This document shows positions 43,642 to 48,692 of a stretch of 64,000 bases of DNA, piece after piece. The notes beneath the pieces are model-generated. The model had not been told where the DNA came from. It searched no databases and saw nothing but the letters and a program-made list of their open reading frames with translations. The stretch is from assembly GCF_003002955.1 (NCBI RefSeq), contig NZ_PVTJ01000001.1, positions 558,001 to 622,000 of the forward strand, read 5' to 3'. Position 1 is the first letter of the stretch. Every line of letters begins with the position of its first letter. Source of the DNA: Glycomyces artemisiae. Lineage in GTDB: Bacteria; Actinomycetota; Actinomycetes; Mycobacteriales; Micromonosporaceae. The translations under genes were made by a program, and so were the position numbers.

Positions 43642-44511
43642 ATGAGCGACCAGGTACCGTCACGATTCTCCGGAGGCGTCGACCTCAGCACCCTCGCCGC
43701 CGCCGCGCAGGCGCAGCAGCAGGCCGCCGCCAACGGCGCCCCCGCGGGCGCCGTCCTCGACGTCACCGACGCCACGGTCCAGGCCGAGGTCCTCGAACGC
43801 TCCCTCGACGCGCTCGTCGTCGTCGCGTTCTGGGCCGACCAGGTCCCCGAGAGCGTCCAGGTCCGCGACCTGCTCCAGCGCCTCGCGGGCGAAGCCGCCG
43901 GCGCCTGGGTCTACGCCCGCGCCGACGTCCTGGAGAACCAGCAGCTCGCCGCCGCCCTCCAGCTCCAGGCCCTCCCCGCGGTCGTCGCCCTCGCGCAGGG
44001 CCGCCCGCTCGACCTGCTCCAGGGCCCGCAGACCGAGCAGGGCCTGCGCCAGTGGATCGGCCGCGTCACCCAGGCCGCCGGACTCGACGTCCCGCAGCCG
44101 GTCGACCCCGAGCTCGCCCGCGCCGAGGCCCTCCTCACCGAAGGCGACCTCGACGGCGCCGAAGCGGTCTACGACAAGTACCTCAAGAACCACCCGGCGT
44201 CCGACGAGGCCGAGGCCGGGATCGCGCAGGTGCGGATGATCCGCCGCGTCGGGGCCCTCCCCGACAACGCCGTCGCCCTCGCCGACGCCGACCCCGCGAA
44301 CATCGACCTCGCGCTGGCCGCCGCCGACCTCCAGCTCCTCTCCGGGCAGGCCGAGGCCGCCTACGAGCGCCTGATCGGCCTGGTGGCCAAGAACTTCGGC
44401 GACGATCGCGAGCGCGTGCGCAAGCGCCTCGTCGAGCTGTTCACCGTCGCCGGACCCGACGACCCGGCCGTCGCCAAGGCCCGCCGCAAACTCAGCGCCG
44501 TCCTCTTCTAG
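43642..44511 (+). CDS. Thioredoxin-fold/TPR protein (YbbN/CnoX-like) lacking the CxxC
   Basis: Protein of 289 residues. A thioredoxin-like domain (about 40-150) has the strand ALVVVAFWADQVPESVQVRD, where a classical thioredoxin has WCxxC; both cysteines are missing. The C-terminal half has TPR-like helices (ARAEALLTEGDLDGAEAVYD; LALAAADLQLLSGQAEAAYE). This architecture matches the YbbN/CnoX holdase group. A non-redox chaperone role is inferred. Confidence 0.87.
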   Translation: MSDQVPSRFSGGVDLSTLAAAAQAQQQAAANGAPAGAVLDVTDATVQAEVLERSLDALVVVAFWADQVPESVQVRDLLQRLAGEAAGAWVYARADVLENQQLAAALQLQALPAVVALAQGRPLDLLQGPQTEQGLRQWIGRVTQAAGLDVPQPVDPELARAEALLTEGDLDGAEAVYDKYLKNHPASDEAEAGIAQVRMIRRVGALPDNAVALADADPANIDLALAAADLQLLSGQAEAAYERLIGLVAKNFGDDRERVRKRLVELFTVAGPDDPAVAKARRKLSAVLF

Positions 44512-44541
44512 GCGACGGAACCCGAACGGCCCCAAGCATTC

Positions 44542-44579
44542 CCGGACCTCCGCGGCGACCGCTCGCCGCGGAGGTCCGG
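44542..44579 (+). terminator. Strong terminator after the YbbN-like gene
   Basis: Perfect 17-bp stem with a CCGC loop, located 30 bases past the stop and ahead of the arginase-family gene. Confidence 0.8.
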
Positions 44580-44661
44580 CCGTTCGGAGGAGGTAGATCA
44601 CCTGGTGCCGCAGCGTTCCCTGTGCCAAGCTAGCGGAACGAGCAACGGTGGGAGGTGAGCG

Positions 44662-45573
44662 GTGGCGACTCGGACGAGACGGGTGGCCGTCCTCGACGCG
44701 CCCTCCAACCTCGGCCTCCGCCCGCCCACCCCGCACACCGTCCCCGGCTGCGCGAAAGCCCCTGGGGCCCTCCGCGACCACCGCCTCGTCTCGCGCCTCA
44801 ACGCCGTCGACGCCGGATGCCTCACCCCGCCCCGCTTCGACGCGTCTCCGTGGCGCCCCGGCGACGGCGTCGGCCAGGCCAAGGCCATCGCCGAGTACAC
44901 CCGCCGCCTCGCCGACCGCGTCGAGCGCCTCTGGCAGGAGCGCCGCTTCCCCCTCGTCCTCGGCGGCGACTGCTCGATCCTCCTCGGTCCCGCGCTCGCG
45001 GCCCGCCGCCGCACCGAACGCGACCGCAAGCCCCGCGGCCTCGTCTTCATCGACGCGCACTCCGACTTCCGCCACCCCGGCAACTCCCAGTACGTCGGCG
45101 CCGCCGCCGCCGAGGAGCTCGCCCTCGCCACCGGCCGCGGCCAGCCCGACCTCACCGACATCGGCGGCCTGCGCCCCTACGTCGACACCGACCACCTCGT
45201 CATGCTCGGACTCCGCTCCGACGACCCCCACCGCGTGGAGCTCGAAGCCACCGGCATCTCGCTGCGCACCGTCCCGGCCCTGCGCGCGGGCGGCGTCGGC
45301 CGCAGCGCCGAATGGGCCCTCGACGCGGTCGGCGACGTCGCCACGTTCTGGCTCCACGTCGACGCCGACGTCATCGACCCCTCCGTGATGCCCGCCGTCG
45401 ACGGCCCCGCGCCCGGCGGCATCTCCCTCGGCGAACTCGGCCAGATCATCACCACCTGCGCCGCCGACGACCGCTGCGCCGGCATGGACCTCACCGTCTT
45501 CGACCCCGACTACGACCCCGACGGCGAGTACGCGAAGGCCCTGGCCGACCTCCTCGTGGAGTGCCTTCAGTAG
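44662..45573 (+). CDS. Arginase/agmatinase (ureohydrolase) family protein
   Basis: Protein of 303 residues, GTG start. Ureohydrolase metal motifs are DAHSDF (D131, H133, D135) and DADVIDP (D234, D236). The first motif, normally GGDHS, reads GGDCS with Cys104 in place of the His ligand of one Mn. The family hydrolyses guanidino compounds to urea. The His-to-Cys change means activity or metal use may differ. It ends 90 bases before the PBP-channel gene in the same direction; cotranscription is possible. Confidence 0.85.
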   Translation: MATRTRRVAVLDAPSNLGLRPPTPHTVPGCAKAPGALRDHRLVSRLNAVDAGCLTPPRFDASPWRPGDGVGQAKAIAEYTRRLADRVERLWQERRFPLVLGGDCSILLGPALAARRRTERDRKPRGLVFIDAHSDFRHPGNSQYVGAAAAEELALATGRGQPDLTDIGGLRPYVDTDHLVMLGLRSDDPHRVELEATGISLRTVPALRAGGVGRSAEWALDAVGDVATFWLHVDADVIDPSVMPAVDGPAPGGISLGELGQIITTCAADDRCAGMDLTVFDPDYDPDGEYAKALADLLVECLQ

Positions 45574-45663
45574 CACTGCGTAGGGCCGCTGATCTGGCGG
45601 AACCGCTGAACGGCGGCCCCGATTCCGGTAGAGCTGTGTGGAGCAACCGGAGGAGGAGCGCCC

Positions 45664-47901
45664 ATGGCAGGCACCGCGACGCCCCGCAGACGCTGGACCC
45701 TCATCGCGGCCGGAATCGTCGCCCTGGCCGCGCTCGCCGTCCTCGCGGTCGTCCTCATCGCCCGCGCCTCCGCGCCCGAGCCCGTCTACGTGGCCGTCGC
45801 CGGGAACCTCGGCGGCGCCGACTCCACCGAGATCGAGTCCGACCTCCTCCCGGGCGTGCAGCTCGCCGCCGACCGCCTCAACCAGGCCGGCGGCATCGAC
45901 GGCCGCACCGTCGAGATCCTCGCCTACGACGACGGCGGCGACCCGCTCAAGGCCAAGGAGAACGCCGAGGCCATCGCCGCCGACGACCGCGCCATCGCCG
46001 TCATCGGCCACACCACGACCGACCCGTCGATCGCCGCGTCCCCGGTCTACGCCGACGCGGGCATCCCCGCGATCAGCCCCTCCGCCACCGGCGACGACCT
46101 GACCGCGAACCGGCCCTGGTACTTCCAGGGCATCTTCGACAACACGCAGCAGGGCGCGTTCCTCGCCGCGTACGTCGACGCCGTGCTGGCGCTCGACCGC
46201 GCCACCGTCGTGTGGGGCGACGACCGGTACGGCACCGACGTCCACGAGGGCTTCACCAGCGCGTTCGGCGGCACCGAGCAGAGCACCACGATCGACCTCG
46301 CCGGGGACACCGACGCCGCGGTCGACGCCGCCGTCGCCTCGATCGCCGCCGACGCGAACCGCGGCGCGATCGTCCTCGGCCTGCGCCCCGACCTCGCCGG
46401 GCGGATCATCCCCGGGCTGCGCGCCGCGGGCGTCACCGAGCCGATCATCGGCGGCGACAAGCTCTCCTCCGAGGCGTTCACCGCCGAAGTCCACGAAGCG
46501 CTCGTCGCGGGCGGCGCCGACGAGGCCGCGCTGGCCGCGCCGATCTACGCGACCGCGCCGGTCCTCACCGACTCCCTGACCGGCGAGGCCCTGAAGTTCC
46601 TGCTCGCGTTCGTGCGCGAGCACGGCTACGTCCCGGACTGGCCCGCCCTCACCGGCAGCGACGCGCTCGCGCTCATCGCCGACGGCCTCGAAGGCGCGAG
46701 CCTCGACCCGGCCGACCGCGCCGCGGACCGGGAGCTGCTGCGCGACGCGTGGGCCGCGACCGACTCGCCCGAGACCGCCGCCGAGGGCCTGAGCGGGCCC
46801 CTGTACTTCGACGACCGGACGCTGGTGCGGCCGGTCCGCATGGGCGTCTTCAGCGGGAACCGGCCCGTCTCGGCGCCCGTGCAGCTCGTCCCGTACACGC
46901 CGACCTCGGGCCAGGACGCGGGCGCCGAGCTCGCCGGCGGCGCCGCCGTCGAGTTCGAGGAGGAGGTCCTCGTGCCCTCCCAGATCGTCTCGACGGGCGT
47001 GAACATCAACGAGATCCGCGACCTGAACACGCAGGCGGGGACGTTCTCGGCCGACATGTTCATCTGGTTCAACTACACCGGCGGCGACGACGTGCTGAAC
47101 GTGTGGTTCCCCAACGCCGTCGACAAGAGCCTGGCCCTCGGCGATCCCTTGGAGTCCAAGCAGGTCGGCGACACGAAGTACCGCCTGTTCCACGTCGAGG
47201 GGACGTTCAAGGCCGACCTGGAGTTCCGGCGGTTCCCCTTCGACGTGCAGCACCTGCCGATCGTGCTCCAGAACCGCACGCTGCCCGACAGCAGCGTCGT
47301 CTACGTGCTCGACGCGGCCGTGCGCGCCCAGACCCAGGCCGAGCGGCTCGCGAGCGCGGGCGACGCGACCACGACGATCGACAGCATCCCGAACTGGCAG
47401 GTGGACCAGGCGCTGTTCACCGCCGAGACCGTCGGCACCACCGCGAACATGGGCGACCCGAGCGCCGACGCCGCGGGCGGGCTCTACTACAGCCAGTTCG
47501 TGACCGACCTCCAGGTGCGGCGCGACGTGGGCGGCTTCCTCGTCAAGAACCTGCTCCCGCTCGGGCTGCTCGTGATGGCGACGTACGTGTCCCTGTTCCT
47601 CGGCTACGACGCCGTGACCTCGCGCGTGTCGATGGCGATCACCGGCATCCTCTCCAGCGCCGTCATGCTCAACTCCGTCACGAGCGTCCTCCCCGCGATC
47701 TCCTACACCGTCGCCATCGAATGGCTCTACTACCTGTTCATCCTCATCTGCGTTGCCCTCCTCGTCATCGACCTCGTCGGCTCCTCCTGGGCCGCCAAGG
47801 GCCGCAAACGCCGCCTCCGATGGCTCACCATCGGCTCCCGCATCGCCTACCCGGCCGTCGTGATCGCCGCCGCGATCACCTACTGGGCGGTCTTCGGCTG
47901 A
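45664..47901 (+). CDS. Periplasmic-binding-protein / pentameric ligand-gated ion channel fusion receptor
   Basis: One 745-residue chain, ATG after GGAGGAGGAG. Residues 11-33 are a membrane helix or uncleaved signal. Residues about 40-410 are a LivJ-like type I periplasmic binding domain (LLPGVQLAADRLNQAGGIDG; AVIGHTTTDPSIAASPVYAD; ATVVWGDDRYGTDVHEGF). Residues about 430-622 are the channel's beta-sandwich, with FSADMFIWFNYTG and the loop FRRFPFDVQHLPI, a Cys-less Pro-loop. Four membrane helices follow: M1 about 623-646, M2 651-672 (VSMAITGILSSAVMLNS), M3 680-706 after the LP-x-x-SY linker, M4 722-743. I infer a surface receptor in which an amino-acid-like ligand gates ion flow. Ligand and ion are unknown. 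Confidence 0.88.
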   Translation: MAGTATPRRRWTLIAAGIVALAALAVLAVVLIARASAPEPVYVAVAGNLGGADSTEIESDLLPGVQLAADRLNQAGGIDGRTVEILAYDDGGDPLKAKENAEAIAADDRAIAVIGHTTTDPSIAASPVYADAGIPAISPSATGDDLTANRPWYFQGIFDNTQQGAFLAAYVDAVLALDRATVVWGDDRYGTDVHEGFTSAFGGTEQSTTIDLAGDTDAAVDAAVASIAADANRGAIVLGLRPDLAGRIIPGLRAAGVTEPIIGGDKLSSEAFTAEVHEALVAGGADEAALAAPIYATAPVLTDSLTGEALKFLLAFVREHGYVPDWPALTGSDALALIADGLEGASLDPADRAADRELLRDAWAATDSPETAAEGLSGPLYFDDRTLVRPVRMGVFSGNRPVSAPVQLVPYTPTSGQDAGAELAGGAAVEFEEEVLVPSQIVSTGVNINEIRDLNTQAGTFSADMFIWFNYTGGDDVLNVWFPNAVDKSLALGDPLESKQVGDTKYRLFHVEGTFKADLEFRRFPFDVQHLPIVLQNRTLPDSSVVYVLDAAVRAQTQAERLASAGDATTTIDSIPNWQVDQALFTAETVGTTANMGDPSADAAGGLYYSQFVTDLQVRRDVGGFLVKNLLPLGLLVMATYVSLFLGYDAVTSRVSMAITGILSSAVMLNSVTSVLPAISYTVAIEWLYYLFILICVALLVIDLVGSSWAAKGRKRRLRWLTIGSRIAYPAVVIAAAITYWAVFG

Positions 47902-48692
47902 CCGGCGCTTCCGTTGCGAAGCCGCCACTTCCGCAGGCTGACGCTCTGTAGAGTGCGGCCGAGCAGCGCCGCTGCTTCGGACTGGGTGCAGCTCAGCACG
48001 ATCCGGTCCTCCTCCGGCGTCCACCGCTTCCGGGCGACGCCGTAGCGGCCCGCCTTCGCCGGATCGGGTGTCCACGCGGCGACCTGGATCGCCGCCTCCC
48101 GCTTGCGGTCGATGCCGATCGCCTCCGGCGGGTTCCATACCCAGGCCGCCAGTTTGGCGGCGGCGCCGTTGAGCACCATGATGTTCGCGACGCCGTCGCG
48201 CCGGTTCGGGCGGGCGGTGCGGGTGACGCCGCAGACCTCCTGCACGACATCGCAGAAGAACGCGGCGAGCGGCTCGCTCGCCGTCACCAGGCTCACGAAC
48301 GGCTCGCCCTTGCCGGTGAAGCCGACCGACCCGTCACCGTCGAGCAGACCGCGCACATAGTCGGCAGCTGCGATCGGCGGAGGCGGCGGCGCGACGGTCC
48401 GCGACTTCCGGCCGGGAGGCACACCGGTGGCCGCGAGCGCTCTTCGGACCTCTTGATCGAAGAACGACAGCGCGACGGACTCGTACCTTTCGCTGAAGTT
48501 CGTGTCGCGCGTGCGCCTGCGGATCGAGGAATAACAGGGCAGCACCGAAGCGAGCCGCGGCAAGACAGACTCATCGCGCGCCGACAGTTCAAGCACGACT
48601 TTGCCCTTCCCGTCGAGGCTGCCGTGGTGCGAGCCATCCGTTTGGAGCAGTCCGATGAGGTAGGCGATTTCTGGCTTCGTTAGGTCGAACAT
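47880..48692 (-). CDS. Two-motif LAGLIDADG-type endonuclease-like protein
   Basis: Protein of 270 residues. Two LAGLIDADG helices are visible: YLIGLLQTDGS (11-21) and YVRGLLDGDGS (112-122), each ending in the acidic residue that forms the active site, so a monomeric homing-endonuclease fold is likely. The C-terminus (about 222-262: RKRWTPEEDRIVLSCTQSEA then ALLGRTLQSVSLRKWRLRN) looks like a Myb/SANT or HTH DNA-binding segment. No intein splicing motifs are seen. It overlaps the end of the channel gene by 22 bases and is divergent from an rtcB remnant. It could be mobile, or a domesticated WhiA-like regulator relative. Confidence 0.75.
   Translation of the reverse strand: MFDLTKPEIAYLIGLLQTDGSHHGSLDGKGKVVLELSARDESVLPRLASVLPCYSSIRRRTRDTNFSERYESVALSFFDQEVRRALAATGVPPGRKSRTVAPPPPPIAAADYVRGLLDGDGSVGFTGKGEPFVSLVTASEPLAAFFCDVVQEVCGVTRTARPNRRDGVANIMVLNGAAAKLAAWVWNPPEAIGIDRKREAAIQVAAWTPDPAKAGRYGVARKRWTPEEDRIVLSCTQSEAAALLGRTLQSVSLRKWRLRNGSAGQPKTAQ

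Follow-up and report, generated by a model that had tools for sequence, protein, structure and literature searches.

What bacterial pentameric ligand-gated ion channels (pLGICs) sense is the question raised by a gene in a 64,000-nucleotide stretch of the Glycomyces artemisiae genome (contig NZ_PVTJ01000001.1, positions 558,001 to 622,000 of the forward strand; hereafter the window), which joins a type I periplasmic-binding-protein (PBP-I) domain to a pLGIC module in one chain. According to Jaiteh et al. (PMC4795631), no pLGIC from a unicellular organism, not even GLIC, had a known biological role in 2016, and a 2025 paper (PMC12664993) still described DeCLIC as the one member whose N-terminal domain has been partly characterised. 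The recognisable amino-acid-binding domain makes the question directly testable, because the isolated domain allows candidate ligands to be found through binding assays. The fusion is genuine, but its design has been in print since 2004, contrary to a sequence-only reading of the window that had presented it as an unknown layout. That reading also overlooked an anchor-like N-terminal helix and an anion-receptor-like pore entrance; together with LivJ contact positions that appear largely kept, these features define what seems to be new here, an actinobacterial branch of the published type. We tentatively read the product as the subunit of a homopentameric receptor, whereby an extracellular alpha-amino acid would close the binding domain and open an anion-selective pore, with the binding domain standing beside the ectodomain, and put the chances of this reading somewhat short of even.

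The gene (Table 1) is a single open reading frame (ORF) of 745 codons plus stop, running from ATG to TGA without an internal stop or an N and preceded by a strong ribosome-binding site. GC content at third codon positions (GC3) lies at 0.95-1.00 in every 300-base step of the frame, and comparison with the Glycomyces sambucus orthologue (87% identical) gave a ratio of nonsynonymous to synonymous substitution rates (dN/dS) of 0.31 over the whole gene. For the same species pair, dN/dS was lowest in the membrane domain, the most constrained part of the protein (0.09), and rose to 0.27 for the ectodomain, 0.48 for the binding domain and 0.74 for the first 38 codons. Since GC3 is uniform, selection is purifying and the fusion recurs in independent genomes, there is no joining error near codon 415; the frame is one intact, constrained gene without an assembly join.

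Both halves were recognised in domain and structure databases. Peripla_BP_6 matched residues 40-391 well above its cut-off (E 8.9e-26, 91.8 bits, cut-off 31.7), which makes the N-terminal half a LivJ-type PBP, and a PDB sequence search matched it to 4gnr (E 9.7e-26) as well as to LivJ and LBP. Neur_chan_memb matched residues 631-704 (E 1.9e-7, 32 bits, cut-off 28.1), and the NCBIfam models TIGR00860 LIC (E 4.9e-15) and LGIC_1 (E 6.8e-7) matched below their own cut-offs. The channel half found GABA-A alpha5 in PDB (E 1.4e-12), and the best 60 of its 262 matches were without exception GABA-A, glycine or GluCl receptors, or chimeras carrying the membrane domain of such a receptor. A profile of the channel half, made from 17 sequences (the window and 16 loci, L032 being left out) over 320 positions and run on PDB sequences, matched GLIC over positions 54-320 (E 2e-18 to 6e-18) and, among the best 60 of 296 matches, also GABA-A, GlyR and GluCl. 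Its top match was 5osa, an engineered chimera of the GLIC ectodomain and the GABA-A membrane domain (E 1.5e-26, positions 17-48 and 54-130 aligned). No PDB match spanning both halves was seen among the best 60 matches listed per search. The single-frame joining of a LivJ-like domain to a pentameric channel, as the sequence-only reading had it, was thus borne out by Pfam, by PDB matches and by recurrence in other genomes, with the PDB profile search taking the place of the HHpred run proposed there for the channel half, and recurrence that of the resequencing.

Conservation was assessed in an alignment of 92 full-length rows (the window, 74 proteins and 17 loci), to which all row counts refer. 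It leaves out partial proteins, rows lacking the channel half, redundant or partial loci and 119 proteins of the P0018 type (P0097-P0215), a type represented by P0018 and P0096 only. The basic residue that ends the ectodomain before M1, R620, is present in 92/92 rows; such a residue has been named as a feature of the pLGIC (Pro-loop) superfamily (PMC549065). Hydropathy segments at residues 622-651, 688-706 and 727-745 give M1, M3 and M4, and M2, which falls below the hydropathy cut-off, was placed by alignment with GABA-A. The profile match, the Pro-loop proline and acid, the pre-M1 basic residue and the four membrane helices place the protein in this superfamily. No cysteine occurs in residues 430-619, and the protein is not a Cys-loop receptor in the strict sense of a disulfide pair around the Pro loop.

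With its N-terminal PBP-I domain on an ectodomain plus four transmembrane helices, the protein has the architecture of the type reported by Tasneem et al. 2004 (PMC549065), who described N-terminal PBP-I channel fusions in the alphaproteobacteria Magnetospirillum magnetotacticum and Bradyrhizobium japonicum, likened them to NMDA and metabotropic glutamate receptors and predicted chemoreceptors for small solutes. The analogy to animal receptors with a LIVBP-fold domain, raised again by the sequence-only reading, is supported. The shared plan is a PBP-I domain on a full ectodomain and four-helix membrane domain in one chain, compared here through P0018 as a stand-in for the 2004 type. P0018 has a secretion-type N-terminus (by eye) and a cation-type K-E-K at -2' to 0', whereas the window protein has an anchor-type helix and T-S-R. 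GLIC, which shares the profile match over positions 54-320 and has no extra N-terminal domain, likewise lacks the Cys-loop cysteines; its pore entrance carries an acid at -2'. GABA-A, glycine and GluCl receptors share the arginine at 0' in an ungapped M1-M2 alignment (GABA-A alpha5), but the window protein differs from them in the missing Cys-loop cysteines and -2' proline, a short M3-M4 loop and the extra PBP-I domain. DeCLIC, likewise a bacterial pLGIC, has a large outer N-terminal domain too, but one built of two jelly-roll lobes (PMC12664993), whereas Pfam and PDB sequence matches assign the N-terminal half of the window protein to PBP-I. Ionotropic glutamate receptors and GluR0 also link an amino-acid-binding-protein domain to a channel, but their pore is of a different superfamily and is inserted in a PBP-II domain (PMC549065), which the Pfam architecture in the window is not. 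In the open-licence literature, no work on the function or structure of a PBP-fused pLGIC came to light, consistent with statements in PMC9897478 and PMC12664993.

The fusion occurs in four further Glycomyces proteins with 72-98% identity (P0001-P0004) and, again in one frame, in other Actinomycetota, Chloroflexota, Verrucomicrobiota, Pseudomonadota and Thermodesulfobacteriota. The genome collection yielded 40 loci, 24 with the fusion in one frame (including L032, where the match stops at residue 655), three partial or broken (L013, L028 and L031) and 13 with the channel half only (L034-L046). A protein search with the channel half returned 71 proteins, 67 of them with a PBP domain (precomputed Pfam list), within a length range of about 410-1300 residues in which short channels lacking an extra domain could not appear. 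Under the same limit, the channel half of P0018 found 414 relatives, with a PBP domain in 111 of the 120 listed; the few names given among these were Acidisphaera, Xanthobacteraceae and Anaerolineae (one Anaerolineae). Full-length copies of the channel were found in 2 of 22 Glycomyces genomes, the window's own included, and the remaining genomes had matches solely via solute-binding paralogues. At the level of the order, the channel half was found at E 1e-6 in 4 of 298 sampled genomes (own genome included, one match short), and at the level of the class at E 1e-10 in 7 of 394, again with the own genome. Trees of the binding domain and the channel share 58 of 89 splits, compared with at most two in 200 label shuffles. 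Of the well-supported splits, the channel tree repeats 39 of the 45 from the binding domain, the binding-domain tree repeats 39 of the 41 from the channel, and there were no well-supported conflicts. Within the 92-row set, the two halves were inherited together.

The pocket can be read from the alignment with LivJ, in which S79, T102, Y150, E226 and Y202 have what we take to be alpha-amino-acid-contacting roles. The counterparts of the first four (T119, T142, Y189 and D265; Table 1) are kept in most rows, and the pocket is read as a predicted, largely kept alpha-amino-acid site. Of the ligands hinted at by the sequence-only reading, amino acids fit these positions; urea, agmatine and polyamines are weakly supported, and the arginase-family gene next door offers no clue to them.

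At the pore entrance, T652, S653 and R654 align without a gap to P-A-R of GABA-A alpha5. There is no acid at -1' and a basic residue at 0' (S653 and R654), as in anion channels, and the nearby acid D649 at -5' has an E as its counterpart in GABA-A alpha5. According to Tasneem et al. 2004 (PMC549065), A-[RK] marks anion and E-[RK] cation channels, with both expected in prokaryotes, and in animal channels the M1-M2 loop sets charge selectivity (PMC4562599). R or K at 0' with no acid from -2' to 0' characterises 56 of the 92 rows, and E at -1' another 18; 17 rows show neither feature and one shows another state. All five Glycomyces rows carry R at 0' and are free of acids from -2' to 0'. The E state requires at least three changes on a channel tree that was made by a quick method with the filter columns left out and that holds several long branches. 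This natural E/non-E variation within one family offers ready-made pairs for the study of charge selectivity. If the pore passes anions, the protein would be a bacterial counterpart of the inhibitory neurotransmitter receptors.

The N-terminal helix (hydropathy 3.04 at residues 14-32) bears on how the binding domain may be held. A hydrophobic segment is present in 91/92 rows; the first binding-domain strand follows it after 3-13 residues (median 8), and net positive charge stands just before the segment in 86/92. At least 80 residues precede the segment in 67/92 rows, a length that a cleaved signal peptide does not explain; for the locus ORFs, mechanical first possible starts were used. In the Glycomyces rows the helix is present without the long N-terminal stretch. 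We read residues 11-34 as an anchor-like signal anchor, with a cleaved signal peptide possible in Glycomyces. The long stretch of P0006 matches TPR_2 (E 8.9e-6), and among ten other relatives sampled six match a TPR model at E <=0.02 and four none at E 0.1, all matches being below the Pfam cut-offs; through this partly TPR-like stretch the channel may be linked to a cytosolic partner.

In the receptor that we propose, the N-terminal segment would stay in place as an anchor and hold the start of the binding domain about 3-13 residues from the membrane, and the end of the binding domain would run into the start of the ectodomain, which in known pLGICs lies at the apex. Because its start would be held at the membrane and its end would lead into the ectodomain, the binding domain would stand beside the ectodomain like a strut, not on top of it. 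An alpha-amino acid outside the cell would then close the binding-domain clamshell, and the resulting pull or twist on the ectodomain, against the membrane, would open an anion-selective homopentameric pore. In the cell, membrane potential, or salt content and volume, would then change with the ligand.

In favour of this receptor stand the domain matches, the kept pocket positions, the N-terminal segment, the pore entrance without an acid, the congruent trees of the two halves and, as genomic context, a GluR0-type gene next to the fusion in two relatives (L021 and L023). Several observations weigh against it. Cleavage after the helix is possible in Glycomyces and some relatives look lipid-anchored or secreted, so that the strut geometry may not be general. 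Four desulfobacterial-group rows (P0014-P0016 and L023) have lipid-anchor-like N-termini (MSAC, ISAC, IGGC and ISAC); the same pattern in P0004 and P0018 was taken as chance. In the pocket, LivJ Y202 is replaced by L240, at a position that varies among the rows. At the pore, T652 replaces the -2' proline of animal anion channels, S and not A stands at -1', the cation-type E occurs elsewhere in the family, and R at 0' is absent from 17/17 rows of the tree-neighbouring clade, which holds Pseudonocardiaceae and relatives (with Saccharothrix, Actinosynnema and Actinokineospora) and is joined to Glycomyces through a branch short of good support (83). Because of the missing proline and this clade, the prediction that the pore is probably anion-selective is reasonable but not safe. 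The fusion gene, moreover, is accessory in Glycomyces.

Best placed among the alternatives, and still unlikely, is the proposal of Tasneem et al. 2004 (PMC549065) that the binding domain is a collector, concentrating the solute for action at a site between ectodomains that belongs to the channel itself. Such a site could be lined by the loop before the last ectodomain strand, which keeps an L-G-D-P motif (commonest letter L596 in 74, G597 in 85, D598 in 64 and P599 in 73 rows), but the window stretch GTTANMGDPSADAAGG, by our own loop assignment, contains no aromatic residue, and a covalent one-chain fusion with congruent trees suits mechanical coupling at least as well. By eye, the L-G-D-P stretch (residues 590-599, 47431-47460) was also seen in the PBP-less L035 and L099. 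We regard it as slightly more unlikely that the binding domain only modulates a channel whose main trigger is another one, such as protons, calcium or a lipid, as in GLIC or DeCLIC. DeCLIC, described as the one pLGIC whose N-terminal domain is partly characterised, responds to calcium (PMC12664993, PMC9897478), and in the one species pair compared, evolution is faster in the binding domain than in the membrane domain; against modulation alone, the ligand-contacting positions are kept in most of the rows, across several phyla. A cation-selective or weakly selective pore is less probable again. The family is labile at its filter, with E at -1' in 18/92 rows and at least three state changes, and the absent -2' proline and the neighbouring clade speak for this possibility as well; it conflicts with the basic 0' and acid-free filter of all five Glycomyces rows and with the anion channels that make up the best 60 of 262 PDB matches of the channel half. 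Very improbable is a non-conducting pore with signalling via the binding domain and the cytosolic end, for which the would-be cytosolic stretch of 67/92 rows could be cited, since the Glycomyces rows lack this stretch, the membrane domain is the most constrained part and the 9' Leu is kept in 88/92 rows. That two genes were joined through an assembly or sequencing error has a negligible probability, being contradicted by the fusion in P0001-P0004 and in one frame in 24/40 loci, by the PBP domain in 67/71 channel relatives (precomputed Pfam lists) and by the uniform codon signal, with no supporting point found.

Relatives of the receptor subunit show its sensor half in other company. In 9/9 matching records from Azospirillum plasmids and megaplasmids, a binding domain and ectodomain are followed by an MscS channel; the ectodomain is 31% identical over 119 residues (E 3e-10), and the channel part matches PF00924 (E 9.8e-16) and the PDB structure of MscS, 2vv5 (E 4.4e-13). 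Because binding domain and ectodomain are here joined to MscS, the sensor half may be a movable gating module, as these sequences suggest. A literature search found no published fusion of PBP, ectodomain and MscS. A plasmid origin of the window gene was rejected, because searching a plasmid collection with the whole protein (tblastn, E 1e-20) gave eight records, all Azospirillum and all with this different fusion. The channel half (E 1e-5) found nine Azospirillum records and one from Streptomyces; the latter encodes a PBP-less pLGIC-like protein (L099 2863-3903, plasmid of Streptomyces sp. NBC_01497), annotated as hypothetical and with no Pfam match at E 0.01.

In two desulfobacterial loci, L021 (Desulfococcaceae HSG9, genome G317) and L023 (a Desulfosarcina metagenome-assembled genome), a GluR0-type gene lies directly upstream on the same strand, overlapping the fusion gene by about 16 nt in L021 and separated from it by about 45 bp in L023 (first possible starts). 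Its SBP_bac_3 domain with an inserted ion channel and TTVGYGD filter corresponds to the plan of GluR0. Upstream of the fusion in L025 there is a remnant (1804-1935) holding only a C-terminal piece of such a gene. When 16 genomes were searched for the GluR0-type gene, seven matched at E 1e-8; one frame spans both lobes and the pore in five of these, and the other two match the lobes alone or the pore alone. No partner was found at this threshold in the own genome, G000, and no GluR0-like gene lies in the 1.5-kb flanks of two further desulfobacterial copies (L107 and L108). A relative at E 1e-60 was present in 2 of 395 sampled desulfobacterial genomes, one of them G317. GluR0 of Synechocystis acts in cell-volume control (PMC13099474), and it may be speculated that paired K+ and anion conductances would move salt. 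As a whole, we consider doubtful the fuller picture of a bacterial amino-acid-gated chloride channel in which a tethered PBP clamshell beside a GLIC-like ectodomain pulls open a GABA-A-like pore, the sign of the filter has switched at least three times, the sensor half also sits on MscS in Azospirillum, and the pairing with a GluR0-type gene in desulfobacteria could let the ligand drive a joint K+/Cl- salt valve.

Table 1. Coordinates of features of the fusion gene (window positions) and of related gene arrangements (positions within the named locus)
Feature	Position	Strand	Basis
Whole gene, anchored PBP-I/pLGIC fusion subunit, 745 aa plus stop	45664..47901	+	Pfam, NCBIfam, PDB sequence and profile searches; purifying selection
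Purine-rich ribosome-binding site GGAGGAGGAG, 5 nt before ATG	45649..45658	+	Sequence
Predicted N-terminal hydrophobic helix after PRRR, residues 11-34	45694..45765	+	Hydropathy; conserved in aligned rows
LivJ-type PBP-I domain, residues 39-410	45778..46893	+	Peripla_BP_6; 4gnr, LivJ and LBP in PDB
T119, aligned with LivJ S79; S/T in 91/92 rows	46018..46020	+	Alignment
T142, aligned with LivJ T102; T/S in 78/92 rows	46087..46089	+	Alignment
Y189, aligned with LivJ Y150; Y/F in 83/92 rows	46228..46230	+	Alignment
D265, aligned with LivJ E226; D in 74/92 rows, E in 1	46456..46458	+	Alignment
pLGIC beta-sandwich ectodomain, residues 430-619	46951..47520	+	Profile match to solved pLGICs
Pro loop FRRFPFDVQHLPI, residues 521-533; P525 and D527 invariant in 92/92 rows	47224..47262	+	Alignment
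Transmembrane domain M1-M4, residues 620-745	47521..47898	+	Neur_chan_memb; hydropathy; M2 by alignment
T652 S653 R654 at -2', -1', 0', putative pore-entrance charge filter without acid	47617..47625	+	Ungapped alignment to GABA-A alpha5 P-A-R
M2-M3 linker LPAISY, residues 676-681	47689..47706	+	Alignment
GluR0-type gene, then PBP-pLGIC gene	L021 5435-6514, 6499-8793; L023 2372-3475, 3523-5850		
PBP-I, pLGIC-like ectodomain and MscS fusion	L098 2584-5925, Azospirillum brasilense Sp7 plasmid; 8 further Azospirillum replicons		
GGDEF-EAL gene, then PBP-pLGIC gene	L018 355-3117, 3254-5851; L019 4749-7496, 7647-10244	same strand	

The neighbourhood of the gene was also analyzed. An arginase-family gene (44662-45573, plus strand; Pfam E 2.2e-33) ends 90 bp upstream, with rocF as its best match, below the equivalog cut-off. 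It was considered as a clue to the ligand and rejected: arginase is found in 22/22 Glycomyces genomes and the full-length channel in 2/22, and because this neighbour is genus-wide while the channel is rare, it is no guide to function. In three of 20 channel-less loci (L059, L067 and L069), DNA matching the window from 47911-48006 onward begins 17-178 bp after arginase, so the channel gene is absent there as a unit; the other 17 showed another or no downstream match in the short stretch examined. A LAGLIDADG-like ORF (47880-48692, minus strand; Pfam E 3.4e-8) overlaps with its end the last 22 bases of the channel gene, and DNA matching this ORF adjoins the empty site in the same three loci. A scan for promoters and terminators found nothing above chance. 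A 1492-aa antisense ORF (43660-48138, minus strand) spans the channel and arginase genes and is probably a by-product of the very high third-position GC. A survey of neighbours at 29 loci, made with a crude ORF caller that picked the long antisense ORF in the window and with short flanks at several loci, gave no family other than the channel in more than three of them. ORFs in the flanks of L107, L108 and L026 resemble, by eye, peptide-binding (PBP-II) proteins or transporters. In two related genomes, represented by L018 and L019, the fusion gene is preceded at a distance of about 140-150 bp by a GGDEF-EAL gene, a type concerned with cyclic di-GMP turnover (identified by Pfam in L018).

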